NCBI RefSeq assembly: GCF_002160525.1 | Contig: NZ_NFKT01000016.1 | Coordinates: forward strand, 1-64,000 | Origin: Lachnoclostridium sp. An169 | Lineage (GTDB): Bacteria; Bacillota; Clostridia; Lachnospirales; Lachnospiraceae | Direction of reading: 5' to 3' | DNA length: 64,000 nucleotides | Shown here: piece by piece, positions 18,827-41,674 of the stretch | Numbering within the stretch: position 1 is the stretch's first letter | How the letters are laid out: the number at the start of each line of letters is the position of its first letter | Program-made: the position numbers and the translations under genes | Notes under the pieces: generated by a model | Seen by the model: the letters and a program-made list of their open reading frames with translations, nothing else | Told to the model about the DNA's origin: nothing | Database searches by the model: none

Positions 18827-18867
18827 AATACGAACATTCGTAATATATGGATGCTCGTATTTTTTTT
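18827..18867 (+). terminator. Terminator after the AraC gene
   Basis: AATACGAACAT (18827-18837) pairs with ATGCTCGTATT (18851-18861), one mismatch, then a run of T to 18867. The loop contains part of a 13-base sequence, ACATTCGTAATAT, that recurs before the GH43-like gene (24030), so a regulatory role for the same DNA is possible. Confidence 0.7.
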
Positions 18868-18928
18868 ATGCTTCCGTTATCAGGTCTTTTATTTATCAAA
18901 AAACAGATACAAAAAGGAGAACGTGACA

Positions 18929-21597: not shown

Positions 21598-23991
21598 ATG
21601 AGAAGAGAAGATTTTAATACGGGATGGAAATACAGGAATGTGAATGACAGGCAATGGAGGGAGATTACACTGCCTCACGATGCAATGCTGTTTGAAAAAA
21701 GGAGAGAGGATGCACCGGGCACGAACGCTGTCGGGTATTTTGAAGGCGGGCGCTACATATATGAGAAGACCTTTCTTATTCCCAAAGAGTGGGAAGGGGA
21801 TTATTTAGCGGTTGAATTTGAGGGCGTCTATCAGCATGCAAAAGTGTATTTAAATGACACATTGGTGAAGGTCTGCGAATACGGATACATTCCGTTTCGG
21901 GCAGAACTCATGGGCGCGGCTGTCTATGGGGAAAAGAATGTGATCCGGGTAGAGGCGGATAACTCGGATCAGCCCAACAGCCGCTGGTATTCCGGCAGCG
22001 GGATCTACAGACCGGTACATCTGATCCATGCCGGCAGTACGCATATCGACTGGCAGGGAGTCAGGATAAAAACCCTCTCTTACGAACCGGCAAAAATACA
22101 GATTCGGACATCAGTCACCGCAGAGACGGAGGTAAAGATCATCCTCCATGTTACAGAGGCGGGCAGCGATACTGTGATCGCAAAGGCAGAAGGAACGGAG
22201 GCAGAAATAGAGATACCCGGCGCGAAACTCTGGGATGAGGAGCATCCGCATCTGTACCGGTGCAGAGTTCTGCTTATGGAAAATGATACTGTGCTGGATG
22301 AAGCGGAAGAAGAATTCGGGATCCGGCTGGTTGAATGGACGGAAAAAGGACTGTTTATCAATGGAAAAGAGACGCTTCTTAAGGGGGCATGCGTTCATCA
22401 TGACAATGGGGTGCTGGGAGCAGCCACTTATGATAAATCCGAAGAGAGAAGAGTCCGGCTGTTGAAAAAATATGGATTCAATGCGATCCGGAGTTCCCAT
22501 AATCCGGCAGCAGAGGGGATGCTCCGCGCCTGCGATAAACTTGGCGTATACGTCATGGATGAAACCTGGGACATGTGGTATGGACATAAAAACAAGTATG
22601 ATTATGCCGATGCATTTATGGAAAATTATCATTCTGATATCAATGCAATGGTGGAACGTGATTACAATCATCCCAGTGTCATCATGTACTCTATAGGAAA
22701 TGAAGTCTCTGAGCCAAAAGATGAAAAAGGTGTTCAGCTTGGCAGAGAGATCGTGGAGTATGTTCACAAAGCAGATGATACAAGACCGGTGACTGCCGGG
22801 ATCAATTTAATGGTCATTGATATGGCGAGCAGAGGAAAAGGAGTCTATAAGGAGGAGGGCGGACGTTCGGATCAGGAAAAAGCAAAGAAGAGGAAAGCGA
22901 AAAAAACGAAAGCTTCCGGAAGTCTTTTCTTTAACATGATGACATCCATGATCGGAACGAACATGAATAAGATGGCAAATTCCAGGCATGCGGATGAGGT
23001 GACATCGCCAATCCTCGATGCACTGGATATCGCCGGTTATAACTATGCATCGGGAAGATATCCGCTGGAAGAAAAAGCCCATCCGGGGCGTCTGATCATC
23101 GGTACGGAAACGTTCCCTATGGATATTGCCAGAAACTGGGAAATGGTAAAGAAGTACCCCTATCTTCTGGGAGATTTCATGTGGACGGGATGGGACTATC
23201 TGGGGGAGGCCGGGATCGGAGCCTGGACTTATACGGCAGACGGGGCCTCGTTTGACAAACCGTATCCATGGCTTCTGGCGGACGTGGGTGCACTGGATAT
23301 TCTTGGAGATGCGAATGGAGAAGCTTATTATGCCAAAACAGTCTGGGGACTTTCCGACAAACCCTATATCGGCGTAAGACCTGTGAACCACCCGGGGATC
23401 AGGGTACGGACAGCAACATGGAGAGGAACGAACTGTTTCGCGAGCTGGAGCTGGAGCGGATGCACGGGAAACAAGGCGGAGATAGAAGTGTATGCCGACG
23501 CTGCCCGGATCGAACTGCTGTTAAACGGAAAATCCCTTGGGAAAAAGAAAGTGAAAGCATATAAAACATTGTTCCGCGCAAAATACCGGCCCGGAAAGCT
23601 GGAAGCGGTCGCATATGACGCTTCGGGAAGAGAGACAGGAAGAAATACCCTCGTATCTGCCCGGGAAGATCTCAGAGTATCTGTGCTCCCGGAGGAAGAA
23701 AAGGTGAAAGCGGGAGATATTATCTATATACCCGTGTGCATTACGGATCAAAATGGGATCGTGGAATCCAATATGGACAAAAAAATATCCGTATCGGTCG
23801 AAGGAGGAACACTGCTTGGATTTGGCAGTGCCAGGCCATGCACACTGGAATCTTTTGTAACGGGAGAATATACCACATATTGTGGACGGGCATTGGCTGT
23901 TGTGAAAGCCGGAGAAGGAGATAAAGTTAGGGTTTATGTTCAGGCGGAAGATTTGGGAAGCGCAGAACACTGGATCGATATTGTTCAGTAA
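21598..23991 (+). CDS. GH2 glycosidase (beta-galactosidase-like)
   Basis: 797 residues, no signal peptide, 32 bp after the GH3 gene. Domain order is usual: jelly-roll (FNTGWKYRNVNDRQWREITL, NSRWYSGSGIYRPVHL), immunoglobulin-like, TIM barrel with acid/base E369 (SIGNEV) and nucleophile E504 (IGTETF), then two C-terminal beta domains (IELLLNGKSLGKKKVK). A Lys-rich insertion (about residues 420-450, DQEKAKKRKAKKTKASG) sits inside the barrel and is unusual. Galactosidase, glucuronidase and mannosidase are all possible within GH2; the short form with a C-terminal Big-like domain most resembles beta-galactosidases. Confidence 0.9.
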   Translation: MRREDFNTGWKYRNVNDRQWREITLPHDAMLFEKRREDAPGTNAVGYFEGGRYIYEKTFLIPKEWEGDYLAVEFEGVYQHAKVYLNDTLVKVCEYGYIPFRAELMGAAVYGEKNVIRVEADNSDQPNSRWYSGSGIYRPVHLIHAGSTHIDWQGVRIKTLSYEPAKIQIRTSVTAETEVKIILHVTEAGSDTVIAKAEGTEAEIEIPGAKLWDEEHPHLYRCRVLLMENDTVLDEAEEEFGIRLVEWTEKGLFINGKETLLKGACVHHDNGVLGAATYDKSEERRVRLLKKYGFNAIRSSHNPAAEGMLRACDKLGVYVMDETWDMWYGHKNKYDYADAFMENYHSDINAMVERDYNHPSVIMYSIGNEVSEPKDEKGVQLGREIVEYVHKADDTRPVTAGINLMVIDMASRGKGVYKEEGGRSDQEKAKKRKAKKTKASGSLFFNMMTSMIGTNMNKMANSRHADEVTSPILDALDIAGYNYASGRYPLEEKAHPGRLIIGTETFPMDIARNWEMVKKYPYLLGDFMWTGWDYLGEAGIGAWTYTADGASFDKPYPWLLADVGALDILGDANGEAYYAKTVWGLSDKPYIGVRPVNHPGIRVRTATWRGTNCFASWSWSGCTGNKAEIEVYADAARIELLLNGKSLGKKKVKAYKTLFRAKYRPGKLEAVAYDASGRETGRNTLVSAREDLRVSVLPEEEKVKAGDIIYIPVCITDQNGIVESNMDKKISVSVEGGTLLGFGSARPCTLESFVTGEYTTYCGRALAVVKAGEGDKVRVYVQAEDLGSAEHWIDIVQ

Positions 23992-24097: not shown

Positions 24098-25939
24098 ATG
24101 AAACATTATTGTAACCCCATGAACCTGGAATACCGTTATCAGTTTTACCGCAAGGTAAATGCAGCGGAAAAACCTGAGCCGTTTAAAGTTTACAGAGAGG
24201 CGGCAGATCCTTCGCTTATCCTGTTTAAAGATACATATTTTCTGTTCCCGTCCATGACAGCAGGTTTCTTTACAAGCGATGATCTGTATAACTGGGAGTT
24301 CCATGAGTTCAGAGGAAAGATTCCGATCTATGATTATGCGCCGGATGTGAGGGTGATGGGAGACTATATGTATTTTTCTGCTTCACATATGGGAGAGGCG
24401 TGTGATTTTTATCGTACCAGGGACCCCAGAACAGAGGAATTTGAGAAAATTCCAGGTACATTTGCATTCTGGGATCCGAATCTGTTTATTGACGATGATG
24501 GAAGAGTGTATTTTTACTGGGGATGCTCCAATCAGGAACCGATCTATGGAGTCGAGCTGGATCCGGAAACGATGGTGCCGACAGGAGAGAAACAGGTGAT
24601 GTTCGATACGGATCCGGAACATCGGGGATATGAGCGCTTCGGGAATGAGCACATCCCCCCGAAAACGCAGGAACAGATCGAGGCTGAGGTGGATCAGATG
24701 TATCAGGGCCTTCTGGCACAGTCTGCAGCAGAAGGCCGGGATATGGGGATGAATGAAGAAGAACTAAGGAACATGCTGCGCGGATACTTTGGAAACAAGC
24801 CATATATTGAAGGGGCATGGATGACAAAACATGACGGCAGATACTATCTGCAGTACGCGGTTCCCGGTACAGAATATAATGTGTATGGAGACGGGGTATA
24901 TGTAAGTGATCAGCCGCTCGGACCGTTTAAGCCTGCAGAGAATAATCCGTATTCATATAATCCGGGAGGGTTTATGACAGGGGCAGGCCATGGATCTACA
25001 TTAGAGGACAGGCAGGGGAATATCTGGCATACAGCGTCTATGAGAATCAGCCATAATGAGAATTTTGAAAGAAGGCTCGGACTTTGGAAAGCGGGATTTG
25101 ACGAGGATGGAGAATTGTATTGTGATCAGCGGTTTGCGTGCTGGCCGATCGCAATGGATGCAAAACCGTTCGATCTGCCGGACTGGATGCTTCTTTCCTA
25201 CCGCAAACCGGTAAAGGTCTCAAGCGGTACAGGGGCTGAGAATATCACGGATGAAAATATTCAGACATTCTGGAAAGCAGCGTCAGATCAGCCGGGAGAG
25301 TATGCGGTCGTTGATCTGGGAGAGGAGATGCGTGTCTCTGCAATCCAGATCAATTTCGCAGATGACGGTATGAGAAAAGAACTTCCGGATACGCTGGAAA
25401 TGCTGCGCCTGCCCTATGAAGAACGATGGATCGATACGGAAAAACAGAGTACAAACTGGCTGCTGGAAGGTTCGGCTGACGGAATAAAGTATTTTGTTAT
25501 TGCCGACAAACGGGCAACAGATACAGATTATGCGCATGATTTTATTGAACTGGCGCAGGAGACCAGGATCCGTTTTGTAAAACTGACAGTGGAAAAGCTT
25601 CCTTATGGACAGTGCGCAGCTGTTTCCGGCATCCGTATATTTGGAAAAGGAAACGGCGAATCTCCGCACAGAGCAGAAGGGGTTCAGGCTGACTATGACG
25701 GCGCCATGGATATGGACGTCAGCTGGAGAGCAGAGGATGCAATCGGAGCAGTGATCCTCTGGGGACATGCTCCGGAAAAACTCTACCACAGCCGGATGGT
25801 CTATGGCAGAGAGGAAGGACATGTCGGCGCGCTCGTAACCGGGCAGTCTGTTTATGTCAGAATCGATACGTTCAATGAGAACGGAATAACGGAAGGCGAG
25901 GTGATCACAGTCTATGAAGGCGATCATGGTGATGTATGA
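24098..25939 (+). CDS. GH43-like glycosidase with C-terminal discoidin-like domain
   Basis: 613 residues, AAGGAGG before ATG, no signal peptide. The five-bladed propeller of clan GH-F is recognisable by its three acids: D37 (EAADPSLI), D126 (FWDPNLFIDDDGR) and E238 (YIEGAWMTKHDGRYYLQYA). A charged helical insertion (about residues 185-232) separates the last two. Residues from about 380 on (VKVSSGTGAENITDENIQTFW, YAVVDLGEEMRVSAIQI) look like an F5/8-type carbohydrate-binding domain, then a short fibronectin-like tail. Members cleave arabinose, xylose or galactose. Specificity is open. Confidence 0.87.
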   Translation: MKHYCNPMNLEYRYQFYRKVNAAEKPEPFKVYREAADPSLILFKDTYFLFPSMTAGFFTSDDLYNWEFHEFRGKIPIYDYAPDVRVMGDYMYFSASHMGEACDFYRTRDPRTEEFEKIPGTFAFWDPNLFIDDDGRVYFYWGCSNQEPIYGVELDPETMVPTGEKQVMFDTDPEHRGYERFGNEHIPPKTQEQIEAEVDQMYQGLLAQSAAEGRDMGMNEEELRNMLRGYFGNKPYIEGAWMTKHDGRYYLQYAVPGTEYNVYGDGVYVSDQPLGPFKPAENNPYSYNPGGFMTGAGHGSTLEDRQGNIWHTASMRISHNENFERRLGLWKAGFDEDGELYCDQRFACWPIAMDAKPFDLPDWMLLSYRKPVKVSSGTGAENITDENIQTFWKAASDQPGEYAVVDLGEEMRVSAIQINFADDGMRKELPDTLEMLRLPYEERWIDTEKQSTNWLLEGSADGIKYFVIADKRATDTDYAHDFIELAQETRIRFVKLTVEKLPYGQCAAVSGIRIFGKGNGESPHRAEGVQADYDGAMDMDVSWRAEDAIGAVILWGHAPEKLYHSRMVYGREEGHVGALVTGQSVYVRIDTFNENGITEGEVITVYEGDHGDV

Positions 25940-27671
25940 TTCCCTGAACCGGAATATGCTGGAACCGTATGGCTGCGACTGGATCCGGACCCCGAATTTT
26001 ATTCGGCTTGCAGAGAGATGTGTGACATTTGACTGTAATTATGCGGGAAGTCTGCCATGCATGCCCGCGCGGCGGGAAATCCACACAGGAAGATATAATT
26101 TTGAACATCGAAGCTGGGGGCCGATCGAACCTTTCGATGACTCAATGCCGGAGATACTGAAAAACAACGGGATCTATACCCATCTGGTGACAGATCACGA
26201 TCACTACTGGGAAGACGGTGGAGCGACCTATCACTCCAGATATTCTTCCTTTGTATTCAGCAGGGGGCAGGAGGGAGACCACTGGAAGGTCAACTGTGAT
26301 CTGATCCGCGCGGTGCATGAGAGGAATCTGTACAGCGGGAAAAACTATTATGACCTTGCCAACAGGGAGTATATGGACCGGGAGGAGCGGATGCCGCAGG
26401 CGGTCACGTTTTCAGCGGGATTGGATTTCCTGGAGAAAAACCATGCTGAGGACAACTGGTTCCTTCAGATCGAGACGTTCGATCCCCATGAGCCTTTCTT
26501 TACCCAGAAGGCATATAAAGAAGCGTTTGCTCATGATTATGACGGGGATATGGGAGACTGGCCGCCTTATTATTTCGTGACGGAAGGCGGGGACGCCGTC
26601 CGTCATGTGCGGATGGAATATGCGGCGCTTGTCACTATGTGTGACCATTATCTGGGACTGGTGCTGGATAAGATGGACGAATATGATCTGTGGAAGGACA
26701 CGATGCTGATCATCAATACGGATCATGGTTTCCTTCTGGGAGAACATGGCTGGTGGAGCAAAACCGTCATGCCTGTCTATGAGGAGATCTGTCATACGCC
26801 GCTTTTCATTTATGATCCCCGCAGCGGCGTGCATGGGGAGCGCAGGAGCGCCCTGACACAGACCATCGATCTTGCGCCTACGATACTGGAACATTTCGGA
26901 CAAAAGATCCCGCAGAATATGCAGGGGAAACCACTGCAGTCTGTGATAAGACATGGCGGAAAGATCCGGGACTATGCAATGTTCGGCTATCACGAGGGTC
27001 ACTGCAATATCACTGACGGAAGGTATGTGTATATGAAAGCGCCTCTCGAAGGAACGGAATTTTACGAATACACCCTGATGCCGACCCATATGCAGCGCCG
27101 GTTCGGAACAGAGGAACTTCAGGATATTCATCTGCAGGAACCCTTCTCCTTCACGAAAGGCTGCCGGACCATGAAGATCCGGGCAAATGAGGGGATGAAC
27201 CATCTGGCGAATTTCGGAACAAGACTCTTTGATCTGCAGGATGATCCCAGGCAGGAGCATCCGGCTGACAATATTGAGAAAGAGACGGAACTCGCCAATG
27301 CCATGATCCGGATGATGCATGAGGACGAGTGTCCGGCAGAGCGTTTCGGGCGTTTTGGATTCCCGGAAGAAGGAGAAGTCACTCCGGAGGATATCAGAAG
27401 GCTGCATGAGAAGGAAAAACAGGTCCGTATTCCGGACAGATTCTCCGATATGGAGTGGGAGGAAGGCGCGGCAAATATGTGCCAGGTGATCGCACGTTTC
27501 CTTCCGGAAGAGGCAGCAGAGCAGGCAGTTGAGAGAATCTGCCGCAGGAAAGAGGACAGCGGAGGCAGAGTAACGGCGGACCGGATGCTCGAAGTGATCA
27601 AAGAAGCGGTCCCGCAGGAACAGCAGCCGATTGTGTACTATTTCGGCATGCTGGCGGCCCGTACCGTGTGA
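25914..27671 (+). CDS. Type I sulfatase (formylglycine-dependent, Cys type)
   Basis: 585 residues, no signal peptide. Alkaline phosphatase-fold sulfatase: first metal Asp in IMVMYDSLNR (D9), maturation motif C49-M-P-A-R53 followed by REIHTGR, and second metal site NTDHGFLLGEHG. C49 must be converted to formylglycine; no anaerobic maturase gene is in the window. The start overlaps the GH43-like gene by 26 bp, implying coupling. Because it is cytoplasmic it should desulfate an imported saccharide or aryl sulfate. The C-terminal 120 residues (SDMEWEEGAANMCQVIARFL) are helical and specific to this subgroup. Confidence 0.9.
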   Translation: MKAIMVMYDSLNRNMLEPYGCDWIRTPNFIRLAERCVTFDCNYAGSLPCMPARREIHTGRYNFEHRSWGPIEPFDDSMPEILKNNGIYTHLVTDHDHYWEDGGATYHSRYSSFVFSRGQEGDHWKVNCDLIRAVHERNLYSGKNYYDLANREYMDREERMPQAVTFSAGLDFLEKNHAEDNWFLQIETFDPHEPFFTQKAYKEAFAHDYDGDMGDWPPYYFVTEGGDAVRHVRMEYAALVTMCDHYLGLVLDKMDEYDLWKDTMLIINTDHGFLLGEHGWWSKTVMPVYEEICHTPLFIYDPRSGVHGERRSALTQTIDLAPTILEHFGQKIPQNMQGKPLQSVIRHGGKIRDYAMFGYHEGHCNITDGRYVYMKAPLEGTEFYEYTLMPTHMQRRFGTEELQDIHLQEPFSFTKGCRTMKIRANEGMNHLANFGTRLFDLQDDPRQEHPADNIEKETELANAMIRMMHEDECPAERFGRFGFPEEGEVTPEDIRRLHEKEKQVRIPDRFSDMEWEEGAANMCQVIARFLPEEAAEQAVERICRRKEDSGGRVTADRMLEVIKEAVPQEQQPIVYYFGMLAARTV

Positions 27672-27749: not shown

Positions 27750-29090
27750 ATGGAAAAGAAAGATAAAATGGGAATCGGTAAGTTCTGGGGATGGCAGGCA
27801 AGGGCAGTTTCTATGGGATGTATGGTCATTATCCTGGGGTATCTTAACATTTACTGCACAGATACTCTGATGCTTTCATCCGCAGTAGTGGGAATACTGC
27901 TTCTCGTATCAAAGATCACAGACGGTATTACCGATCTGATCGCGGGATATATTATTGACAATACACATACGAAATGGGGAAAGGCAAGACCTTATGAGGT
28001 GTTTATTATCGCTCTGTGGATCTGTACATGGCTTTTGTTCAGCTGTCCGGCGGAGTGGTCTGATGTTTTGAAATATATATGGGTATTTATCATGTATACG
28101 CTGGTCAATTCCATATTCGCAACTTTCCTGTATTCTAACCAGACTCCATATATGCTGCGGGCGTTTGGTTCACAGCAGCAGATCGTCAAAGTAAATTCTT
28201 ACGGCGGTATTGTAGTAACGCTGGGCTGTGCAGTAGTTTCCATGCTGTTCCCGCAGATGATGGCGACAATGGCGACCTCTGCGTCAGGATGGTCGAGAAT
28301 GGTGGGGATGTTCGCAATCCCGCTTTGCGCGATCGGTCTGCTGCGTTTTCTGCTTGTAAAAGAGACGGTTGAGATCGACAATGGTGAGACCGAACGTGTA
28401 ACACTGAAAGATATGCTGGGGGCGCTCAAAAGCAACAAATATATCTTTATGGCGGCAGGGATTTCACTGTTGTACAATCTCGTTCAGGGAATGAACGCTT
28501 ATACATATTATTTTACATATATCGGAGGGGGGATTGATAAATATACTTCACTCGCAGCGCTTTCCATGCCGCTTCTGATCGTCATGTTTATCTTTCCGCA
28601 GGTGATGAAAAGAGGAATCACCACTTCCAGGATCATCCTGTTCGGCGCGATATGCGGTGTTGTCGGATGGGGGCTTAATTTCTTCGCGGGAGACAATATG
28701 GCCATTCTGATGATCGCAGCAGTCCTTTATACTTTTGCAGGACTTCCGATTGCGTATATCAGCGGACTTCTGCTTCTGGACTGTTCGGAGTATAATGTGT
28801 TGACCGGGAAAAAGAGGATGGAGACAACGATGAGTGCCGTGAGCAGCTTCGGCACAAAGATCGGTCAGGGCGTAGGCAATGCGCTGTTGGGAATTATGCT
28901 TGCCGTATTCGGATATAATGGGGCAGCAGAGGTGCAGACGGCAGACGCAGTGATGGGGATCAGATGCCTGTACAGCGTGATCCCGGCTGTGATCTATCTG
29001 CTGATCGTCATTATTTGTATGAAATATGATCTGGAGAAGATTCTTCCCGGACTGCGCGAAAAGGCAAAGGCAGGAAAACGGGCGGAATAA
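27750..29090 (+). CDS. GPH-family (glycoside-pentoside-hexuronide) cation symporter
   Basis: 446 residues with about 12 hydrophobic helices. N-terminal GKFWGWQARAVSMGC and the loop DGITDLIAGYIIDNTHTKWGKARPY are the family hallmarks (as in MelB and XynB/UidB types). Start after AAAGGAG. It lies between the sulfatase and the redox genes and is likely to import the sulfated or glycosylated substrate. A related protein is encoded at 62.2 kb. Confidence 0.92.
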   Translation: MEKKDKMGIGKFWGWQARAVSMGCMVIILGYLNIYCTDTLMLSSAVVGILLLVSKITDGITDLIAGYIIDNTHTKWGKARPYEVFIIALWICTWLLFSCPAEWSDVLKYIWVFIMYTLVNSIFATFLYSNQTPYMLRAFGSQQQIVKVNSYGGIVVTLGCAVVSMLFPQMMATMATSASGWSRMVGMFAIPLCAIGLLRFLLVKETVEIDNGETERVTLKDMLGALKSNKYIFMAAGISLLYNLVQGMNAYTYYFTYIGGGIDKYTSLAALSMPLLIVMFIFPQVMKRGITTSRIILFGAICGVVGWGLNFFAGDNMAILMIAAVLYTFAGLPIAYISGLLLLDCSEYNVLTGKKRMETTMSAVSSFGTKIGQGVGNALLGIMLAVFGYNGAAEVQTADAVMGIRCLYSVIPAVIYLLIVIICMKYDLEKILPGLREKAKAGKRAE

Positions 29091-29128: not shown

Positions 29129-30988
29129 ATGCCAAATTCAAGAAGAGATTTTATGCGGGGAACTGCAAATGAAAAACCGGAGTACAGTGAAAAACGCAGA
29201 CCTGTCCAGGTGCATGAATGTGATGTACTTGTGATCGGCGGAGGAATTGCCGGCATGGAAGCAGCACTGCGTGTTGTGAGCAGAGGGAAAACGGCGATTA
29301 TTGTTGACAAAGGGGTATTCGGGCATTCGGGAACATCCGGCATGAACTGGGGGCATACTTATCAGAGCATGGAGTTCAGTCCGGATGATGACGCAGCAAT
29401 AGCAGGCACTATCGCAGTAATGGATATGGTATGTGAGGGACTGTTAAACCAGCCGTATTTCTATAATCTCCTTAAGGCGCATAAAGAGGAAAAGATTATT
29501 CAGAATGGCTTGAAATATGGAAGTATTCCTTTATACAACGAGGACGGAACTGTTCTCAGCAGAAATGAAGTGAATCCTCAGTTCCCGGTGACGCATGATC
29601 AGGGATTCTGGCCGAGGATGATGGCGCAGTGGTGTCAGAGAAATGGTAATGTAACGGAGATCATAGATAATACTTATGTTGTAGATATTCTTCTGTCGGA
29701 TGACGGGCATGCTGCGGGCGCAGTAGCCATTGACATGGTGAACGGTATTCCGCATGTGTTCCGGTCCAGGGCAACCATTATGGCAACGGGAAGCTACTGC
29801 TGGATTACCGGATGGAACGGCATGGGGGCAGAGTCCATGGCCGGAAAGGAGAATACCGGGGACGGAACTGCCATTCTTCTGAGGCATGGCATCCCCATGG
29901 CTGACATGGAGCAGTACTGCGGCGATGCTTCGCAATGGACGCCTGCGGGTACGAGACAGACTATGGGGAACTTTAACTTTGATGCAAGTCAGACACCAAA
30001 GAATATGATTTACGATAAGGACATGATTTCCTGGGCGGAGATGCTGGGAGATAAACATCCGATGATAAATATGGGCGGAACCATGAGGATCTTCTATGGT
30101 CTGAGACTGCATGGAAGAACGACGGAAAACGGAGGCTGCTATCTGGATAAAGCGTCAGCACCGGTCAGCCCGCGTTATTTCAGGCGGGTAGAAGAGAGGC
30201 AGAAAGCTTTGATGGACTATGAACTGCCGCAGTATGTGGAGGTTGTGCCTGAGACATGGGACAGTGCCGGATGTCCGCGTGAATTGTCAGAAACTTCAGA
30301 AACGGTCATACCGGGATTGTTCTTTGCGGGAGCGGCGCCGGGAGCAGTCGGAGGCATGACACAGATCGCAGCCCAGTCCGGCGGATGGATCGCGGCAAAC
30401 GGAGCGGTCGAGATCGCTTCAAAGATCAGTATGCCGGCAGTGGATAAAGAGCAGGTGGACAGGATCATTGAACGGGCATTCCACTATATTGAAAAAGAAC
30501 CGGAGAATCCGATCAGGCCGAATAAGGTGATGCGCAGGATTCAGCAGACCTACTGGGACAGAGAGAACGGGCCTCTGAAGGATGAAAAGAAGATTAAGGA
30601 TATCATCCGGGAACTCACAAGGATCAAGGAGGAAGATATCCCAAGAATGTGGACTTCAGACAGATCTTATCACATGAACTGCGAATGGAGAGACTGTTTT
30701 GAGGCGGAAAACATGCTCTACTGTGCGCTGGGAGCGTCATATGCAGGATTGATCCGGAGAGAGACAAGGGGATTCAATATGCGTACGGATTATCCGAATC
30801 TCGACAACAGTACCGGACTGAAAAATACAGTGGTAAAACTGGAGAAAGATGGGACATGGCATTCGGAGTTCGCTCCGAAATACGATCAGATTATTCCGTC
30901 AGCGGTTGTAGCTCAGATGGTTCCGACAGATATCGGACTTGATACATTTGCAAAAGGAGAAAAGGATGACGCAAAGGAGAACAGATAA
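29129..30988 (+). CDS. FrdA/AprA-like FAD-binding oxidoreductase subunit
   Basis: 619 residues. FAD-binding VLVIGGGIAGMEAALRV near residues 33-50 and C-terminal GLFFAGAAPGAVGGMTQIAAQSGGW place it in the succinate dehydrogenase/fumarate reductase flavoprotein superfamily. I do not see the canonical QFHPTG or HYTMGG motifs that bind dicarboxylates. The N-terminus reads NSRRDFMRGT, a twin-arginine-like motif, but no hydrophobic stretch follows, so export is doubtful. AGGAGG precedes the ATG. The stop shares TAATG with the next gene. With the three genes downstream it forms a soluble electron-transfer complex; the substrate is unknown. Confidence 0.85.
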   Translation: MPNSRRDFMRGTANEKPEYSEKRRPVQVHECDVLVIGGGIAGMEAALRVVSRGKTAIIVDKGVFGHSGTSGMNWGHTYQSMEFSPDDDAAIAGTIAVMDMVCEGLLNQPYFYNLLKAHKEEKIIQNGLKYGSIPLYNEDGTVLSRNEVNPQFPVTHDQGFWPRMMAQWCQRNGNVTEIIDNTYVVDILLSDDGHAAGAVAIDMVNGIPHVFRSRATIMATGSYCWITGWNGMGAESMAGKENTGDGTAILLRHGIPMADMEQYCGDASQWTPAGTRQTMGNFNFDASQTPKNMIYDKDMISWAEMLGDKHPMINMGGTMRIFYGLRLHGRTTENGGCYLDKASAPVSPRYFRRVEERQKALMDYELPQYVEVVPETWDSAGCPRELSETSETVIPGLFFAGAAPGAVGGMTQIAAQSGGWIAANGAVEIASKISMPAVDKEQVDRIIERAFHYIEKEPENPIRPNKVMRRIQQTYWDRENGPLKDEKKIKDIIRELTRIKEEDIPRMWTSDRSYHMNCEWRDCFEAENMLYCALGASYAGLIRRETRGFNMRTDYPNLDNSTGLKNTVVKLEKDGTWHSEFAPKYDQIIPSAVVAQMVPTDIGLDTFAKGEKDDAKENR

Positions 30989-31734
30989 TGGAAAAGAAGA
31001 TTACTGCAAAAGTGTTCAGGTATGATCCTTCTGTGGATGAAAAGCCATATTATAAAGAATATGAAGTCCCATGGCAGGAAGATAAGAGCGGATTTATGAC
31101 AGGCCTGCAGGTACTGCACTATATTTACGAAAATATCGAACCGATCGCATATGATTATAACTGCAGAGGAAGCATATGCGGAAGATGTTCCATGGTGATT
31201 GACGGCAAGCCCGGCCTGGCATGTTATACAAAGCTGACACCGGGGCGTCATACGTTTGAACCGCTGGAGGGTCAGCCCATTATCCGGGATCTGATCATAG
31301 ACAGGAAACCGGTCATGCAGAAATTTGTTGAAACGCAGGTGGCAAAGAAAACACTGAATCCGGTAGAAAAATCAGAGAATATTGATTATGACCTTTACTG
31401 GAATACTCTGGAAAGGTTAAATAACTGCCGGGAGTGCATGCTCTGCTACGATGTATGTGCCGCTTTAAAAGTGAATGACTGGGATTATATAGGACCGGGG
31501 GCAATGATGCAGGTCGCGTTCCGGCATCTGGATCCTCACGATGAGGCTGACCGTGTAGAGCAGGCGGTCCATTCGGGATTATGGAAATGCGTGATGTGCG
31601 GAAGCTGTGAGCTCGTCTGTCCTGCTCAGATCCCACATTTATCACTCCTTAAGAGACTGCGGGACGACGCTGAGAAACGGGGCCTGAAACCGGAAGGCTG
31701 CGATGACCACAATTTCTGGAAGAACAGTCAATAA
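30988..31734 (+). CDS. FrdB/TfrB-like iron-sulfur subunit
   Basis: 248 residues. Plant-type 2Fe-2S site C59, C64, C67, C79 (NCRGSICGRCSMVIDGKPGLAC), then two ferredoxin-type motifs C147-x2-C-x2-C-x3-C157 and C201-x2-C-x2-C-x3-C211 followed by Pro. This is the fumarate reductase iron-sulfur subunit plan. There is no membrane-anchor gene nearby, so the complex appears soluble. TAATG coupling to the flavoprotein gene supports a stoichiometric pair. Confidence 0.9.
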   Translation: MEKKITAKVFRYDPSVDEKPYYKEYEVPWQEDKSGFMTGLQVLHYIYENIEPIAYDYNCRGSICGRCSMVIDGKPGLACYTKLTPGRHTFEPLEGQPIIRDLIIDRKPVMQKFVETQVAKKTLNPVEKSENIDYDLYWNTLERLNNCRECMLCYDVCAALKVNDWDYIGPGAMMQVAFRHLDPHDEADRVEQAVHSGLWKCVMCGSCELVCPAQIPHLSLLKRLRDDAEKRGLKPEGCDDHNFWKNSQ

Positions 31735-31763
31735 GTACGATAAAGTGTGAAAGGAATACAGTT

Positions 31764-33566
31764 ATGAGTTCGGTCAAATTTAGTGAGAGCGTGATTCAGA
31801 ATGCGGATAAGATCGTTCATGAATGCATGGGACATGAAGATGCCTTCTGTATGAGCAGATGTCCGATGAGTACGGATGTAAAAGCGTATATCGGCCTGAT
31901 CGCAGAACGCAGATATGAGGAAGCGCTGAAAGTGATCCGGGAGAAACTGTTCTTACCGAATACTTTGGGGAGGATCTGCGCGCATCCCTGCGAAAATGCA
32001 TGCAGAAGAGAGATGGAATTTCACCAGCCCATGGCGATCGCTGCGCTGAAACGGTTCGCGGCAGAGCAGGCAGATGATGAGTCCCTGTGGGATCTGGAAA
32101 CAGGAGCAGATACCGGCAAACGTATAGCGATCGTAGGTTCCGGGCCGGCCGGGGCACAGGCTGCGATCGACTTGAGAAAAGCAGGACATGAAGTAACGAT
32201 CTACGAAAAAATGGATAAGGCAGGCGGAATGCTCCGGATTGGAATTCCTGTTTACCGACTGCCCAGAGAGATCATCGATCATGAGTATCGTTATCTGGAT
32301 AAACTTGGCATAAAATTCAGATTTGGCGTCCAGGTAGGCAGAGACTGCTCATTTCAGGAGTTAAGAGAACAATACGACGCTGTATTGATCGCGGCAGGCG
32401 CACAAAAGGGTAATGTGATCAAAGTGCCCGGTTATGATGCAGAAGGAGTATTTACTGCAGTTGAATTTTTGAGAGAAGTAAATGAGACAAAAGATTTCAA
32501 GGCTGCGGGAAGAAGGATCATGGTGATCGGCGGCGGAGATGTGGCTATGGACTGCGCGCGTTCAGCAGTCCGGTTAGGAAATCGTGAAGTATATCAATGC
32601 TCGCTGGAGAACCTGGAGATTCTGCCGGCTTCTGATGAGGAGAGGGATGAGGCGCTGGAAGAAGGCGTTCAATGCAATTTCGGATGGGGACCGGCACAGA
32701 TACTGGAAGAAAACGGAGCGGTGAAAGGAATCGTTATTCAGGAAGTCACCTCTGTATACGATGCAGAAGGAAGATTTGCTCCTCAATATGGAGAGAAAAC
32801 GAAGACCATTGAAGTAGATACTGTTATTATGGCAACGGGACAGATCGTGGAAGATATTACAGACGGAGCTGTAAAGCAGATCGGAGGAGGAAGATATCAG
32901 GTCGATCCGGATACACTTGCCACGGAAATCCAGGGCGTATTTGCAGCAGGTGATGCGGCAGGCGGAAAGATCGTGGTAGAGGCCATGGCCCTGGGCCGTA
33001 AGGCGGCTGTCAGTATTGATCGGTTTGTCTGCGGCAGAGATCTGAAGGAAGACAGAGATCTGAAGAAAGAATGGGCATATGAAACAAAATTAAACGTTCC
33101 GCTTCCGGAAGGAACGAAAGATGAGCCGAGAGTACATAAGAATCTCAGACCGGTCAGTGAACGCATCCGGGATTTTGAACCGATTGACGCCGGATTCAGT
33201 GAGGAAGATGCGGTAAAAGAAGCATCCAGATGTCTGAAATGTGAATGCAGATTATGCATGAAAGAATGTGTCATGATGAATGAGTACGGCAGCTGCCCGG
33301 AAGATATTTTCGGCCAGCTCGCTTCTGAAGGAAAAATGGAGGCAGTGGTATCATATTCATGCAATGATTGTGACGGATGTACCAGAGTATGTCCGCTCGA
33401 GCTTCCGATCAAAGAGATATTCATGGAAGCGCGCAGAGATTTTGTGAAAGCAAACTACGGACAATCTCCGATGAAAGGCCACCGGGCGGTAAACATACAC
33501 CAGGAACTGGGATTTTATTCCATGTATACAGCAAAAGCCTGTGGAGGTGAGAACGATGATCGATAA
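31764..33566 (+). CDS. GltD/NfnL-like NAD(P)H:acceptor oxidoreductase with extra Fe-S domain
   Basis: 600 residues. The N-terminal cysteine domain (FCMSRCP, RICAHPCENACRRE) and the FAD (IVGSGPAGAQAAIDLRKAGHEV) and NADPH (VIGGGDVAMDCARSAVRLG) sites match the small subunit of glutamate synthase and NfnL/DsrL-like proteins. After the core a second cysteine-rich region follows: RCLKCECRLCMKECVMM and CNDCDGCTRVCPLEL. This added ferredoxin-like tail suits passing electrons from NAD(P)H to partner proteins. No glutamate synthase large subunit is present. It overlaps the next gene by 11 bp. Confidence 0.88.
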   Translation: MSSVKFSESVIQNADKIVHECMGHEDAFCMSRCPMSTDVKAYIGLIAERRYEEALKVIREKLFLPNTLGRICAHPCENACRREMEFHQPMAIAALKRFAAEQADDESLWDLETGADTGKRIAIVGSGPAGAQAAIDLRKAGHEVTIYEKMDKAGGMLRIGIPVYRLPREIIDHEYRYLDKLGIKFRFGVQVGRDCSFQELREQYDAVLIAAGAQKGNVIKVPGYDAEGVFTAVEFLREVNETKDFKAAGRRIMVIGGGDVAMDCARSAVRLGNREVYQCSLENLEILPASDEERDEALEEGVQCNFGWGPAQILEENGAVKGIVIQEVTSVYDAEGRFAPQYGEKTKTIEVDTVIMATGQIVEDITDGAVKQIGGGRYQVDPDTLATEIQGVFAAGDAAGGKIVVEAMALGRKAAVSIDRFVCGRDLKEDRDLKKEWAYETKLNVPLPEGTKDEPRVHKNLRPVSERIRDFEPIDAGFSEEDAVKEASRCLKCECRLCMKECVMMNEYGSCPEDIFGQLASEGKMEAVVSYSCNDCDGCTRVCPLELPIKEIFMEARRDFVKANYGQSPMKGHRAVNIHQELGFYSMYTAKACGGENDDR

Positions 33567-34332
33567 GGCAAAACATTATGGATTTATGCCGGGATGCAGT
33601 CTGGCTTCTTATAATCCGGAGGCTGTTGCAAAGACAACGGCATATCTGAAAAGCTGCCTGCCCAAATTCTCAGCGGTATTAAAGTGCTGTGGGAAACCGA
33701 CAAAAGATATCGGACAGTACGAGCTTTTTCGGGAAAGATTTGCCGGACTGGAGCAGGATCTGGAAGAGGTACATGTAGAAGAACTGATTCTTGCCTGTCC
33801 AAACTGTAAAGCGGTATTTGAGAAGGAAAGCAATACGAAGGTGCGTTCTTTATGGGAGATTCTCCCGAAGACAGGACTTCCAGAAGAAGTCAGGGGAAAA
33901 GCAAAAGACAGTGATATGATTTTTACGATTCACGATTCCTGCTCCGCACGTTATGATAAGGAGGCGCAGGAAGGGATCCGCTGGATATTGAAGGAATTGG
34001 GATATCAGTATGTCGAATCTGAATACTCAGGTGAAAAGACGAAATGCTGCGGATTTGGCGGGCAGGTCAATCCGGCCAATCCGGATATGACGCGAAAAGT
34101 CATGCGGCGCCGTATCGAAACACTGGAGGATTATCCGGTTGTAGTATATTGCTCGACCTGTCGTTCTGCTTTCATGCAGAATCATGTTAAGGCATGGCAT
34201 ATATTAGATCTGATCTGGGGACCTGTTGTGCATATGGGAGATGAACCGGGATGTGATGTCCTGGAAAAACCGGACAATGTATGGCATAATCGTTTTGAGA
34301 CAAGAAAACAGATGATGAAATGTTTTGAGTGA
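33556..34332 (+). CDS. HdrB-like CCG-domain protein
   Basis: 258 residues from the ATG after GGAGGTGAG. Two complete cysteine-rich CCG repeats are visible: C14...C44-C45-G...C81-x2-C84 and C129...C164-C165-G...C199-x2-C202. In HdrB such repeats hold noncubane 4Fe-4S clusters at the active site; in thiol:fumarate reductase the same domain is fused to the TfrB iron-sulfur subunit. Here it is a separate gene, last in the redox run and followed by a terminator. Confidence 0.9.
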   Translation: MIDKAKHYGFMPGCSLASYNPEAVAKTTAYLKSCLPKFSAVLKCCGKPTKDIGQYELFRERFAGLEQDLEEVHVEELILACPNCKAVFEKESNTKVRSLWEILPKTGLPEEVRGKAKDSDMIFTIHDSCSARYDKEAQEGIRWILKELGYQYVESEYSGEKTKCCGFGGQVNPANPDMTRKVMRRRIETLEDYPVVVYCSTCRSAFMQNHVKAWHILDLIWGPVVHMGDEPGCDVLEKPDNVWHNRFETRKQMMKCFE

Positions 34333-34358
34333 AAGTGTGTGATATGGAAGAGAAGATG

Positions 34359-34393
34359 GGGATGTCTGTCGGGAAGAGCAGACATCCCTTTTT
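34359..34393 (+). terminator. Terminator at the end of the hydrolase/redox run
   Basis: GGGATGTCTG (34359-34368) pairs exactly with CAGACATCCC (34379-34388), followed by five T. It may also serve the Rpn-family gene arriving from the other side. Confidence 0.85.
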
Positions 34394-34401
34394 CCCTTCC
34401 T

Positions 34402-35283
34402 TTACTTTTGGCTCCACTTAGAAAGAGCGTCAGCGTCTGTGACAGCTTCTCCTGCCAGTTCCATAACTTCATCTGTATCTAATTCAAGAAATTCGGCAAT
34501 GGCTTCCGGGGACATGCCTTTATCCAGCTTTTTTCGGATCAGTTCTTTTAAAGCGGCACGCTTGCCCCGCCGTTCTGCGCTGTTCATCTGCGTATTATAA
34601 TCATGAAGCGCCCGCTCCCTTGCTTCATACTCCAGGCGTTTCTGCTCATCCAGACTCAGTTTTTTCAGTTCGTTGTATGCTTCTTCAATATATTCATCTT
34701 TCTTTGCCATATCCTCGAACTCCTTCTTGGTCTTCCCACTTAAGAAGCGCATCCAGCGGATCACACCTTCCTCGTTCTGGTCTTCCTCAGGCAGTTTTTT
34801 CAACTCCAGGATATGCAGTTCCATAAGGTTTGTATACTGCTTTCCGGTTTCAACATCACAGAATGCGATCTTTCTGTAACAACGCTTATCCTCTGGAAAA
34901 TGGATGAAATCAAGAATACTTACATGAATACAGGGTTTTAATGTTTCGTAAGGCTCACCCCTTTTGATCTGGCTGGTGTATACTTTGCATTCATAAAACA
35001 GGACCCGGTTTGTCCAGAATTCAAAATACGGTACCTGCATTTCCATGTTCAGTTTTGATCCGTCATCCAGCTCCACCATCACATCCAGGATTCCAAGCTT
35101 GTCGTCAGAGGATTCTCTGCGCAGTTCCGAGGGAATCAGGATCGTATTCCGGATTGATACTGGATCTTTCCCGAGGACTGCCGCGATGAAACCTTTCCTG
35201 ACCTTGGGATTTTGCATCAGTTCTTTAAAACAGAAGTCCACTGTGGGAAGCATGATAAAGTTGTCATGTTCATTTTTACACAT
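34402..35283 (-). CDS. Rpn/PD-(D/E)XK nuclease-transposase family protein, copy 1
   Basis: 293 residues, GGGAGG before the start. The N-terminal nuclease core is visible: FCFKELMQNP, GILDVMVELDDGSKLNMEMQV (Asp ... E-x-Q) and NRVLFYECKVYTSQ. Then a conserved helical region (LSGKTKKEFEDMAKKDEYIEEAYNEL) and a C-terminus with a Lys-rich helix and GMSPEAIAEFLELD. Members of this family promote recombination or spread as dispersed genes in Clostridia. Copies 2 (52.5 kb) and 3 (59.6 kb) lie in the same window. Copy 1 and copy 3 share their upstream leader (GTTTCCTCCCTTATCTTA). Confidence 0.88.
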   Translation of the reverse strand: MCKNEHDNFIMLPTVDFCFKELMQNPKVRKGFIAAVLGKDPVSIRNTILIPSELRRESSDDKLGILDVMVELDDGSKLNMEMQVPYFEFWTNRVLFYECKVYTSQIKRGEPYETLKPCIHVSILDFIHFPEDKRCYRKIAFCDVETGKQYTNLMELHILELKKLPEEDQNEEGVIRWMRFLSGKTKKEFEDMAKKDEYIEEAYNELKKLSLDEQKRLEYEARERALHDYNTQMNSAERRGKRAALKELIRKKLDKGMSPEAIAEFLELDTDEVMELAGEAVTDADALSKWSQK

Positions 35284-38908: not shown

Positions 38909-39010
38909 ACCAATACAGACAGGAGATTCAGAAGAAGCGCTGTACAGAAAAATGAGGCAAAGAAATCATTTGAGGTGCGGCGCTTCTTTGCTATACGGAG
39001 GGAAAAGGCA

Positions 39011-41674
39011 GTGAGGAGAGAGAAAAGTCCGGAGATTCAGCCGTTCCTGAATATCTGGGATACAGATACTGAGGATGAGATCCGCAGCAGACTTCAGGAA
39101 CTGAAAAAGATGGGGATCAGTTCCTTTGTGATTCAGTACGCAGCCAGAGAAAACGACGGACAGAAAAATTGGGGCATCAGCCCTTTTGACGAGAGATATT
39201 TTTCGGTACTTGGAAAGATATCGAATATATGCCGGGAAATGCAGATGACATATTGGACGCAGGATGCGGCGCCTTTTCCTACAGGAGCTGCAAACGGGGC
39301 GTTTCGACAGGAGGAATATTTTCAAAGAGGAAAGCTTTATATAGAAGAACGTCATACAAATGTGCGGGGACCGTTAAAAAGTGCCCGGATTGCAGCAGAC
39401 CGGTTTAACGGACTGCTCACAGGCGGAATGGAAAATATTATTGCAGGAATGAAAAAGACCGGTCCGGAGAAAAACAGCCGGGCACGACTTCTTGGAGTGA
39501 CAGCAATGCCGGAGACAGAGGAAAATGAATATGATGCAGGAAAGGCGATCAGCCTTACGGAATACCTGAATGAAGAAAGCGGCATACTTCAGTTTGATCT
39601 TCCGGCAGGTATATGGCGCATATTTTTTATCTTTGAGACACATATCGGAAACGGCAGGAAGTTTTACATGAACCTGTTGGATAAAGAATCCGTAAAAGTA
39701 CAGATAGAAAAGGTTCATGAACTGCACTACAGCAGATTAAAAGATGAGCTTGGAATTACGTGGGAGGGATTTTTCTATGATGAGCCTGAAGTAGGAAATG
39801 TAGGAGGATATGATTTCAACTGTCTTCCGGGGGATGTGAAGGGGAGAACGCCGGCAGCTATGCCATGGAGCAGAGGGATGCCTGAAGCCATGAAGAAAAG
39901 GCTGGGAGAAAAATGGCTGGAGCTTCTTCCGGGATTGTGGTATGAATGTGGCGAAACAAGCCGGATAGTAAGATATCATTATATGGATGCGGTAACAAGA
40001 GCAATTCAGGAAAATTATAATGGTCAGGTTTTTTCATGGTGTCGTGACAGAGGTATCCGCTATATCGGTCATGTTGTAGAGGATGAGAATTCCCATACGA
40101 GGCTTGGGTGCGGAACCGGACATTTTTTCCGAACACAGCGGCATCAGGACATGGCGGGGGTGGATCTGATCGGAGGTCAGCTGCGGCCGGGGATGGATAT
40201 GAAGGGGGTGTGCTGGTACGGATGCGCGGATGGAGACGGAGAATTTTACCATTATGGGCTGTGCAGGCTTGCCGCATCGGAAGCGCATATTAATCCGGAA
40301 AAGCAAGGAGGCAGCTTCTGTGAAATAAATGCGGTGTACCAGGAACTATCGAATGGGAAGTTTTATAAATTCCTTTTAGACCATTTATTTGTTAATGGGA
40401 TTGACCATCTTGTGCCGGTGATCAGAAAAGCGCTTCTTCCGGAAGAAGGCGCGGTACTTTTCCGCTATGCCGGAAAGATATGCAGAATGCTGTCCGGAGG
40501 AAAGGCAGTGATACCGGCTGCAGTCCTGTACCATGCAGAGGCTGAATGGAGCGGGAGCTGCATGTATTTCCAGAAGGCAGGGGCAGTGCTGCAAAAGGAA
40601 CAGATCGCTTATGATGTAATTCCTGGAGATGTATTTGTAGAGAGGGAGTATTATCATACCATGATTATGCCGGGCAGATTCTCGGTAAACGGACAGGAGT
40701 ACAGGGCACTGATCATTCCGAAATGCAGTTATATCCGGGAAGATGTTCTGAAAGGCGTTCTGGAGCTGCATGAGAATGGGACAGAGATCATGTTTATCGA
40801 CTCCCTGCCGGTCGGCTACTGTGAAAGGGCAGGGAATATCGAGTGGAAAAATAAAAATTTTTCTCCGGTACCGCTGCAAAAGACGGCGGTGAGACTTAAG
40901 GAAAAAGGAATATATGATGTCCGCGTTATAGGATCGGCCCCCTGGCTGCGGTATGCTCATTGGAAAAAGGAGGAAAGAGATTATTACCTGTTTCTGAATG
41001 AGGATGACAGAAATGGCCTTCAGACAAAAATCATTTTTCCCGGATCGGAACACAGGTATATAAGAAGGGTAGATGCAGAGGAAAATTGGATTGAGACAAC
41101 TGGTGCCGGAATGGTGGATTTGTCTCTGGGCTGTCTAGGGAGTGCTCTGTATATTATCGGGGAACCTCTCCGGGAAGAAAAAGAACAGAACCATGTACCG
41201 GAGGGGACTTTGTCAGGCAGACTTCCGAAGATCGGGTGGTCTCGGGGAAAATGGACGGCAGAGTACGAAAAAGAAGGAACAAAGCAGATTCGGGAACTGG
41301 CGGAACCGGAAGATCTGGAAATGCAACAGGATATGATAAGATTCACCGGTGAGCTGGTATACAGGACGAAAGCTGTTTTTATCGGACTGCTTCCCGATTT
41401 CCTTAACCTGGGGGAAGTTTGTGACAGCGCTCATGTGTATATAAACGGGATAGATGCAGGATACCGGATTGCGGCACCGTACATATTTGATGTTTCTTCA
41501 GTGGTAAAAGAAGGAAGCAATGCTGTAGAGATACACATACAGCCTTCCCCTGCAAGAGGAATACCGGATATAAGAGATCAGGATATGGAATCTATTGTGA
41601 GTCCGTGCGCATATGTATGTATGCCACGGTTGGGGCTGATCGGACCGGTATGCTGGCAGAAGGCGGCAGAATAA
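39011..41674 (+). CDS. Large glycoside hydrolase-like protein, GH106-related
   Basis: About 887 residues using the GTG eight bases after CGGAGGG; a GTG at 38975 is a weaker alternative. No signal peptide. Recognisable pieces are FFYDEPEVGN, IGHVVEDENSHTRLGCGTGHFF, RHQDMAGVDLIGGQLRPGM and YGLCRLAASEAHINP, typical of uncharacterised bacterial proteins related to GH106 alpha-L-rhamnosidases. A C-terminal beta-sandwich (SAHVYINGIDAGYRIAAPYIFDVS) resembles a GH2 sugar-binding domain. The neighbouring GH78 gene makes rhamnose release plausible. Catalytic residues cannot be named with confidence. Confidence 0.72.
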   Translation: MRREKSPEIQPFLNIWDTDTEDEIRSRLQELKKMGISSFVIQYAARENDGQKNWGISPFDERYFSVLGKISNICREMQMTYWTQDAAPFPTGAANGAFRQEEYFQRGKLYIEERHTNVRGPLKSARIAADRFNGLLTGGMENIIAGMKKTGPEKNSRARLLGVTAMPETEENEYDAGKAISLTEYLNEESGILQFDLPAGIWRIFFIFETHIGNGRKFYMNLLDKESVKVQIEKVHELHYSRLKDELGITWEGFFYDEPEVGNVGGYDFNCLPGDVKGRTPAAMPWSRGMPEAMKKRLGEKWLELLPGLWYECGETSRIVRYHYMDAVTRAIQENYNGQVFSWCRDRGIRYIGHVVEDENSHTRLGCGTGHFFRTQRHQDMAGVDLIGGQLRPGMDMKGVCWYGCADGDGEFYHYGLCRLAASEAHINPEKQGGSFCEINAVYQELSNGKFYKFLLDHLFVNGIDHLVPVIRKALLPEEGAVLFRYAGKICRMLSGGKAVIPAAVLYHAEAEWSGSCMYFQKAGAVLQKEQIAYDVIPGDVFVEREYYHTMIMPGRFSVNGQEYRALIIPKCSYIREDVLKGVLELHENGTEIMFIDSLPVGYCERAGNIEWKNKNFSPVPLQKTAVRLKEKGIYDVRVIGSAPWLRYAHWKKEERDYYLFLNEDDRNGLQTKIIFPGSEHRYIRRVDAEENWIETTGAGMVDLSLGCLGSALYIIGEPLREEKEQNHVPEGTLSGRLPKIGWSRGKWTAEYEKEGTKQIRELAEPEDLEMQQDMIRFTGELVYRTKAVFIGLLPDFLNLGEVCDSAHVYINGIDAGYRIAAPYIFDVSSVVKEGSNAVEIHIQPSPARGIPDIRDQDMESIVSPCAYVCMPRLGLIGPVCWQKAAE

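Follow-up and report, generated by a model that had tools for sequence, protein, structure and literature searches.

A four-gene set with FrdA-, FrdB-, GltD/NfnL- and HdrB-like modules in a glycosidase-sulfatase gene run of Lachnoclostridium sp. An169

Glycan-utilisation operons are usually read in terms of hydrolysis and transport, which raises the question of what a multi-subunit redox system might do at the end of one. We addressed this question in the first 64,000 nucleotides of contig NZ_NFKT01000016.1 from Lachnoclostridium sp. An169 (the window), where four adjoining genes, here called A to D (29129-34332), stand behind genes for glycosidases of glycoside hydrolase (GH) families 3, 2 and 43, a sulfatase and a sugar carrier. 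An earlier note on this DNA had described that arrangement, and Pfam and NCBIfam profiles confirmed it. Our preferred reading, in which we place moderate confidence, is that A-B-C-D would be a soluble, cytoplasmic, NADH-linked oxidoreductase with a type-E-like frame and a rebuilt pocket in A, probably reducing a product of the hydrolases.

The four genes and their cofactor and substrate sites

Gene A (29129-30988, + strand) encodes a 619-residue FrdA-like flavoprotein with Pfam FAD_binding_2 and Succ_DH_flav_C domains. Gene B (30988-31734, +) encodes a 248-residue FrdB/TfrB-like iron-sulfur protein with Fer2_3 and 4Fe-4S dicluster domains, carrying one [2Fe-2S] and two four-Cys [4Fe-4S]-type motifs. 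Gene C (31764-33566, +) encodes a 600-residue GltD/NfnL-like FAD and NAD(P)H protein with an N-terminal Fer4_20 domain, Pyr_redox_2 and a Fer4_17 dicluster tail, and gene D (33556-34332, +) an HdrB/SdhE-like protein with two CCG (PF02754) stretches. These coordinates and domains agree with the four modules proposed in the earlier note, as do the junctions: A and B share TAATG, and C and D overlap by the claimed 11 bases if D starts at ATG 33556, which is preceded by a GGAGGTG ribosome-binding site and is likelier than the GTG at 33541 given in the list of open reading frames (ORFs). A terminator-like hairpin of 12 pairs with a T-run (34358-34389, +) lies 25 bases past D. Since the hairpin scan found 23 terminator-like sites against 14.1 expected in shuffles, it is notable only by its place and its 12-pair stem. 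Promoter-like sites were no more frequent than chance would give (24 against 27.4 expected); the spacing of the genes suggests that A-D and the upstream genes are co-transcribed.

Relatives were sought with exact peptide patterns over a genome collection of 84,980 species, a scan that reaches close relatives only. Three loci held a close relative of A (77-80% over the best segment): L034 and L036, each from a metagenome-assembled genome (MAG), and L035 from Faecalicatena faecalis. Together with the window they make four members. The A-D frames keep 66-87% amino-acid identity in other genomes and so are not chance frames. In eight A-D gene pairs, nonsynonymous divergence (dN) from the window was 0.13-0.15 for A, 0.10 for B, 0.21-0.23 for C and 0.21-0.25 for D, and it was 0.23-0.27 for the sulfatase; A and B were the slowest-changing among the genes compared. 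Synonymous divergence (dS) was saturated and not computable in six of the eight pairs and was 3.27 and 2.11 in the other two; with sulfatase pairs counted in, three pairs were computable (2.1-3.9).

The FAD Rossmann motif of A is intact and invariant in all four members. We aligned A with E. coli FrdA/SdhA in three ways: with SdhA chains (including 7d6v, for the positions of H233, H356 and R391), with MAFFT and with HHalign. At the position of the covalent-FAD His (RSHT) all four members have Gly (Gly68 in A) in the SdhA-chain and MAFFT alignments, and HHalign places a gap. E. coli FrdA H233 corresponds to Asp266 (SdhA chain, HHalign) or Thr271 (MAFFT), H356 to Trp377 (SdhA chain 7d6v) or to a gap just before it (MAFFT, HHalign), R391 to Gln412 in all three alignments, and R288 to a gap (MAFFT, HHalign). 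None of these five residues (numbered with the Met counted) is kept in the four members, the Arg position being the weakest case. Because none is kept, A is unlikely to be an ordinary fumarate or dicarboxylate reductase.

The N-terminus of A carries a motif like that of twin-arginine translocation (Tat) signals, SRRDFM/L, in the three members whose starts are sure; the start in L036 is uncertain. Hydropathy did not point to export: the best 15-residue values were -1.51, -0.44 and -0.6, against +1.6 in a control, although no Tat predictor was applied. None of A-D has a hydrophobic N-terminal stretch by hydropathy, and a cytoplasmic complex is therefore plausible. Pfam found a membrane-anchor domain in none of the four, with no transmembrane predictor applied; the flanking genes are a PDDEXK_2 ORF and a GPH carrier. 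The control, L083, was the sole distant A homologue added by wider searches among the matches listed (29%, 180 bits). It pairs an FrdA-like frame (L083:1243-3168), which by eye carries a complete Tat lipoprotein-like signal, with an FrdB-like partner (3202-3900). This one homologue suggests that A may derive from an exported reductase and be kept inside the cell. The larger region around it (L084) has another FrdA-like ORF upstream, again with a Tat-like start by eye.

The last motif of B reads CVMCGSCELVCP, compared with CTFVGYCSEVCP in E. coli FrdB; the second four-Cys [4Fe-4S] motif is present in B of the window, L035 and L083, where E. coli FrdB has Val. Both Rossmann motifs are present in C. 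At the YRR loop of GltD, C and two relatives have SLE and three further C-like proteins have CLE; a GltD-like protein from another part of the window genome has neither, and E. coli PreT, annotated as NAD(+)-linked, has ARE, read by eye. Because Glu replaces the second Arg of the GltD loop, as in PreT, there is a hint that C may use NADH rather than NADPH. The NAD(P)H-linked oxidoreductase of the earlier note holds as regards its modules, with C appearing to be of the NADH and not the NADPH type. D has two full CCG motifs (CX29CCGX34CXXC and CX34CCGX32CXXC), and searching the PDB with the D sequence returned nothing reliable.

Known relatives of the parts

The set looks like an already known kind of complex in altered form, with a type-E-like frame and an added NAD(P)H module. 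The type-E succinate:quinone oxidoreductase or 8-methylmenaquinol:fumarate reductase (MFR; SdhABE, Wolinella) shares with A-D an FrdA-like subunit that has a twin-arginine motif and lacks the covalent-FAD His, a B subunit in which a second [4Fe-4S] motif replaces the [3Fe-4S] one, and a CCG-rich third subunit with two cysteine motifs, here D (PMC2680327). Unlike MFR, A lacks the hydrophobic signal region and the fumarate-site residues, and C stands where MFR has a quinone route; the MFR flavoprotein model NF042982 gives A 66 bits against a cut-off of 1100. Methanogen thiol:fumarate reductase (TFR, TfrAB), which had been put forward as the system with the same modules, is only part of the comparison. 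Among NCBIfam profiles, A scores highest with its TfrA model (125 bits) and B with its TfrB model (151 bits), which also hits D (46 bits). However, the scores fall far below the cut-offs (718 and 385), the CCG part is a gene of its own here, an NAD(P)H module is added and the fumarate-site residues are not kept. In architecture the type-E complex is the nearer match, and not TFR alone.

C resembles GltD, NfnL and StnC in its Fer4_20 N-terminus and its FAD and NAD(P)H domains, and differs in its added dicluster tail and in the Glu at the second Arg of the loop. GltD-type modules serve as electron inlets in other complexes, as with StnC (PMC10482914). C and D also align at full length, bar one domain, with the fused pyridine nucleotide-disulfide oxidoreductase/dicluster protein NF045663, which accompanies a molybdopterin aldehyde oxidoreductase (NF045668). 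Here, however, C and D are split, the NAD(P)H domain is kept and the partner is FrdAB-like instead of a molybdenum enzyme. The NF045663 cut-off of 530 bits, set over one chain, is not reached by the two genes (C 256, D 215 bits); its layout without an NAD(P)H domain was seen in five of the six proteins aligned here and is not a stated criterion of the model. For A, a functional parallel is Cgr2, a gut reductase of the FrdA-like type whose predicted active-site residues diverge and which reduces an unsaturated lactone (PMC5953540). With Cgr2 and other Tat-exported FrdA-like gut reductases covered there, A shares the FrdA-like catalytic unit, divergent active-site residues and, prospectively, a specialised compound as substrate (PMC5953540). 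A differs in that it looks cytoplasmic by sequence and NADH-linked by neighbourhood, and no haem partner is found among the four genes. Adenylylsulfate reductase AprAB, considered because of the sulfatases, was rejected: A scores 33 bits against an AprA cut-off of 642, and B has a 2Fe-2S domain where AprB is of the ferredoxin type. A title-level literature search found no article title naming a complex of FrdAB, GltD and HdrB, from which we do not claim absence from print.

Distribution of the set and of its C-D half

The A-D set is rare and patchy. In the genomes of 99 relatives, 44 match A at E 0.001, the best outside the window genome reaching 47 bits over 240 residues, and none of the 57 other same-genus genomes among them has a full-length match. 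Broader samples were searched with at most three candidates per genome scored among the matches listed. The window genome itself was the only one to match A in the phylum (1/398 genomes at 1e-40) and order samples (1/392 at 1e-35), and in the family sample (3/397 at 1e-25) it was joined by G915, which agrees in contig number and coordinates with the F. faecalis genome already found, and by G1131 (180 bits). Plasmids gave no match to A at 1e-15.

The order A-B-C-D is held in both relatives with enough contig, L034 and L035. A adjoins a glycosidase in all three close relatives and sulfatases are present in two, the third, L036, being just 4.9 kb long. L034 has four sulfatase-like ORFs, GH2, A-B-C-D, a SASA esterase and a distant GPH-type carrier; its B is split by a frameshift in the MAG (L034:11908-12649), from sequencing error or decay. 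L035 has three sulfatase-like ORFs, GH78, GH43, a GPH carrier, a GDSL esterase, A-B-C-D, a second GPH carrier and a SASA-like esterase, and L036 has GH39, A and B, the contig ending inside B. Profiles typed the GH2 and SASA genes of L034, the GH78 of L035, the GH39 of L036, one sulfatase each of L034 and L035, and the GDSL gene. The remaining matching sulfatases, the carriers and GH43 were typed by likeness to window genes, and the first (partial) sulfatase ORF of L034 and the SASA-like gene of L035 were assigned by eye only. L034 also has a NifS-like cysteine desulfurase gene two genes upstream of A (L034:7897-9036; 457 bits, cut-off 531), possibly of use in cluster loading.

The earlier note had tied the four genes to each other and to hydrolases. 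This is what we found for close relatives of A, none of which was seen away from glycosidases or, contig permitting, from B-C-D. It does not extend to more distant genes: the A-B homologue of L083/L084 (27-29%) lacks C-D, and C-D occurs elsewhere without A-B.

A fused C-D protein, NF045663, was found in 17 of 291 class-level genomes at 1e-60, in 11 of them above its cut-off. We read the flanks of one copy in each of eight of these 11 (G154, G208, G280 and second copies were left out), and all eight adjoin a molybdopterin hydroxylase-type gene, which in L065 is broken into two ORFs and in L071 runs off the contig. The five other class-level genomes below the cut-off, the window genome excluded, were all read and had no A or B at 1e-5. 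D homologues occurred in 15 of the 397 family-level genomes, and 13 loci were fetched after leaving out the window genome and G915. Twelve have long frames (735-804 residues) taken as fused, three of them matching D but not C at 1e-10; 11 of the 12 adjoin a molybdopterin hydroxylase-type gene, and none of the 13 loci has A or B at 1e-10. This neighbour was thus present in 19 of 20 loci read. It was recognised by likeness to one query, and the two copies that were typed score above the cut-off of the NCBIfam model for molybdopterin-dependent aldehyde oxidoreductase. The exception, L117:5634-7970, has no recognised gene of this type in the fetched 14 kb. In L110, D is split off and lies one small ORF from a pyridine nucleotide-disulfide oxidoreductase. 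A rhodanese-domain gene stands beside C-D in L059 and L060 (in L060 by Pfam) and about 5 kb off in L062. Of six fused proteins aligned, L061, which is under the model cut-off, retains the NAD(P)H Rossmann domain present in C; the other five, two of them above the cut-off, do not have it. Because its fused relatives mostly adjoin a molybdopterin oxidoreductase-type gene without A-B, C-D looks like a portable electron module, here with FrdAB-like genes as neighbours and the NAD(P)H domain retained.

Weighing the possible activities

In the reading we prefer, NADH would reduce the FAD of C. Electrons would then pass through the iron-sulfur clusters of C and its HdrC-like tail to two non-cubane-type sites of D, from which the three clusters in B would relay them to the FAD in A. 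The pocket of A, rebuilt and presumably no longer binding fumarate, would most likely reduce a C=C or C=O bond in a compound that the hydrolases set free, whether an aglycone or a sugar in unsaturated or keto form, and the step would serve the cell as an NADH sink. The sequence itself shows the order of the genes, their domains, the motifs for clusters and cofactors and the hydrolase linkage, and the alignments show the loss of the fumarate-site residues; the gene overlaps and the hairpin after D favour a single unit. To these the proposal adds a complex formed by the four proteins, a preference for NADH and a reductive direction, the last a judgement made because fermenting bacteria more often need NADH sinks. 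A narrower version, in which an NADH-driven intracellular complex reduces an unsaturated or oxidised sugar (e.g. a 4,5-unsaturated uronosyl or keto sugar) in a sulfated-glycan locus, is tentative; to our knowledge, reduction of such sugars is not an established chemistry of the FrdA fold. The earlier idea of an oxidoreductase acting on a hydrolase product is consistent with the modules, the hydrolase linkage in 3/3 relatives and a plausible cytoplasmic location, and the ordinary fumarate reductase that it had set against itself appears unlikely.

Several observations count against our preferred reading. The placement of R288 is insecure: six columns past the gap (MAFFT) stands an invariant Arg320, and the distant homologue L083 has Arg in the R288 column itself. 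The AlphaFold2 model of A, built from a four-row alignment, had a low mean predicted local distance difference test score (pLDDT, 37.9), a failed prediction. The better-scoring models of C include several named as NADPH-dependent. The five fused proteins without an NAD(P)H domain give by themselves no support for NADH use, the retention of that domain in L061 counts on the same side as the uncertain Arg column, and the usual molybdenum partner of fused C-D is an oxidising type of enzyme, pointing to the opposite direction. Moreover, only four members are known, so that few loci underlie the hydrolase link, part of which may stem from joint transfer.

The direction of flow is the point on which one alternative turns. 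The same complex could run in reverse, A oxidising a sugar, uronate or aglycone and C handing electrons to NAD+, and we consider this somewhat unlikely. The aldehyde oxidoreductase type of the usual neighbour of fused C-D (two neighbours typed) speaks for it, and dehydrogenases do occur within the FrdA fold; however, with the NAD(P)H domain absent from five of the six aligned fused modules, these offer no model for NAD+ reduction, and the need of fermenters for NADH sinks again favours reduction. That A-B and C-D are two separate enzymes sharing an operon seems improbable to us. C-D did occur without A-B in 13/13 other family-level (E 1e-10) and 13/13 other class-level loci read (E 1e-5), and the 19.9 kb of L084 around L083 held A-B type genes and no C or D homologue (1e-5). 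Against this, the order and tight spacing of all four genes are kept in L034 and L035, and no anchor-type gene accompanies A-B, so B would need a soluble electron partner.

The two remaining alternatives change the chemistry. A thiol- or disulfide-linked enzyme like TFR or Hdr, in which the CCG sites of D make or break a disulfide, would fit the two full CCG motifs of D, the dicluster tail of C, the TfrA and TfrB profile matches, the disulfide oxidoreductase near the split D of L110 and the rhodanese-domain genes of L059 and L060. Yet related C-D mostly adjoin a molybdenum hydroxylase-type gene, whose substrates would not be thiols, the typed genes of the run included no recognisable gene for thiol biosynthesis, and CCG proteins such as SdhE, LdhH and GlcF transfer electrons with no disulfide chemistry involved. 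We therefore rate this enzyme as quite improbable, and the disulfide- or thiol-linked electron sink offered in the earlier note becomes less likely, as C-D without A-B is mostly fused beside the molybdopterin gene. An ordinary soluble fumarate reductase or succinate dehydrogenase we judge very improbable. FrdA/SdhA profiles and Succ_DH_flav_C do match A, and B passes the general SdhB/FrdB subfamily model TIGR00384 (148.5 bits against a cut-off of 88), a further point against our preferred reading. On the other side stand the loss of all five checked FrdA residues in 4/4 members and the scores of A, far under the cut-offs of all models among the matches listed (25 of 47).

A conserved multi-subunit redox set ending a hydrolysis and transport run would imply a redox step on released products in some bacteria. 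If the substrate is a glycan fragment, the glycan would double as an electron acceptor. A-D also illustrates how FrdAB-like parts may be recombined with GltD/HdrBC-like parts, and the set is small enough for expression and assay.

The surrounding gene run

The genes upstream of A follow one another with short gaps, all on the + strand. The run is headed by an AraC-type regulator (17612-18808), 46% identical to a regulator beside the GH3 of F. faecalis locus L080. The permuted GH3 (18851-21565), its C-terminal domain first, has a 69% identical orthologue in L080; its start is unsure, as the listed ORF opens with a hydrophobic stretch (+1.65) that an internal Met start would leave out. Next come a GH2 matching a GalB-like profile (21598-23991), a GH43 with an F5/8 type C domain by Pfam (24098-25939), a sulfatase without a hydrophobic N-terminal stretch (25914-27671) and a GPH-family (MFS_2) sugar:cation symporter by Pfam and NCBIfam (27750-29090). 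Orthologues of the sulfatase are 66-69% identical in L034 and L035, with a further copy at 57% in L077; matches to GH43 are at 71% in L035 and 51% in L078, to GPH at 59% in L035, and to GH2 at about 39% in L034 and L080.

Past the terminator the window holds two GH78 genes, with relatives of 33-46% in L035, L078 and L080. An 899-residue ORF (38975-41674, +) has no Pfam hit at 1e-6 and matches C-terminally, and weakly, a GH2-like glycosidase structure, which we take to be a GH106 rhamnosidase. Since the run contains GH43, GH3, GH2 and a sulfatase, L036 has GH39, and two GH78 genes and the presumed GH106 match lie past the terminator, the gene content suggests a sulfated, rhamnose-containing glycan or glycoside. 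The set of GH78, GH43, GH39, GH2, GH3 and sulfatases presumably resembles that of published ulvan loci. Ulvan was considered and set aside: no lyase is among the typed genes, though no search was aimed at lyases, and the five GH88/105 hits of the genome sit on other contigs. The glycan is thus left open.

Near the start of the window, an ORF (876-1787, +) resembles OYE/BaiCD-type enoate reductases; the profile start is missing and the best matches cover differing ends, so it seems incomplete or rearranged. PDDEXK_2/Rpn transposase-like ORFs lie near the cluster in the window (34402-35283 and 59570-60460, both -) and in L035 (20254-21228, -), with 57% identity between window and L035; the 34402 and L035 copies were typed and the 59570 copy was assigned by likeness only. 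Mobility of the region around A-D is possible.

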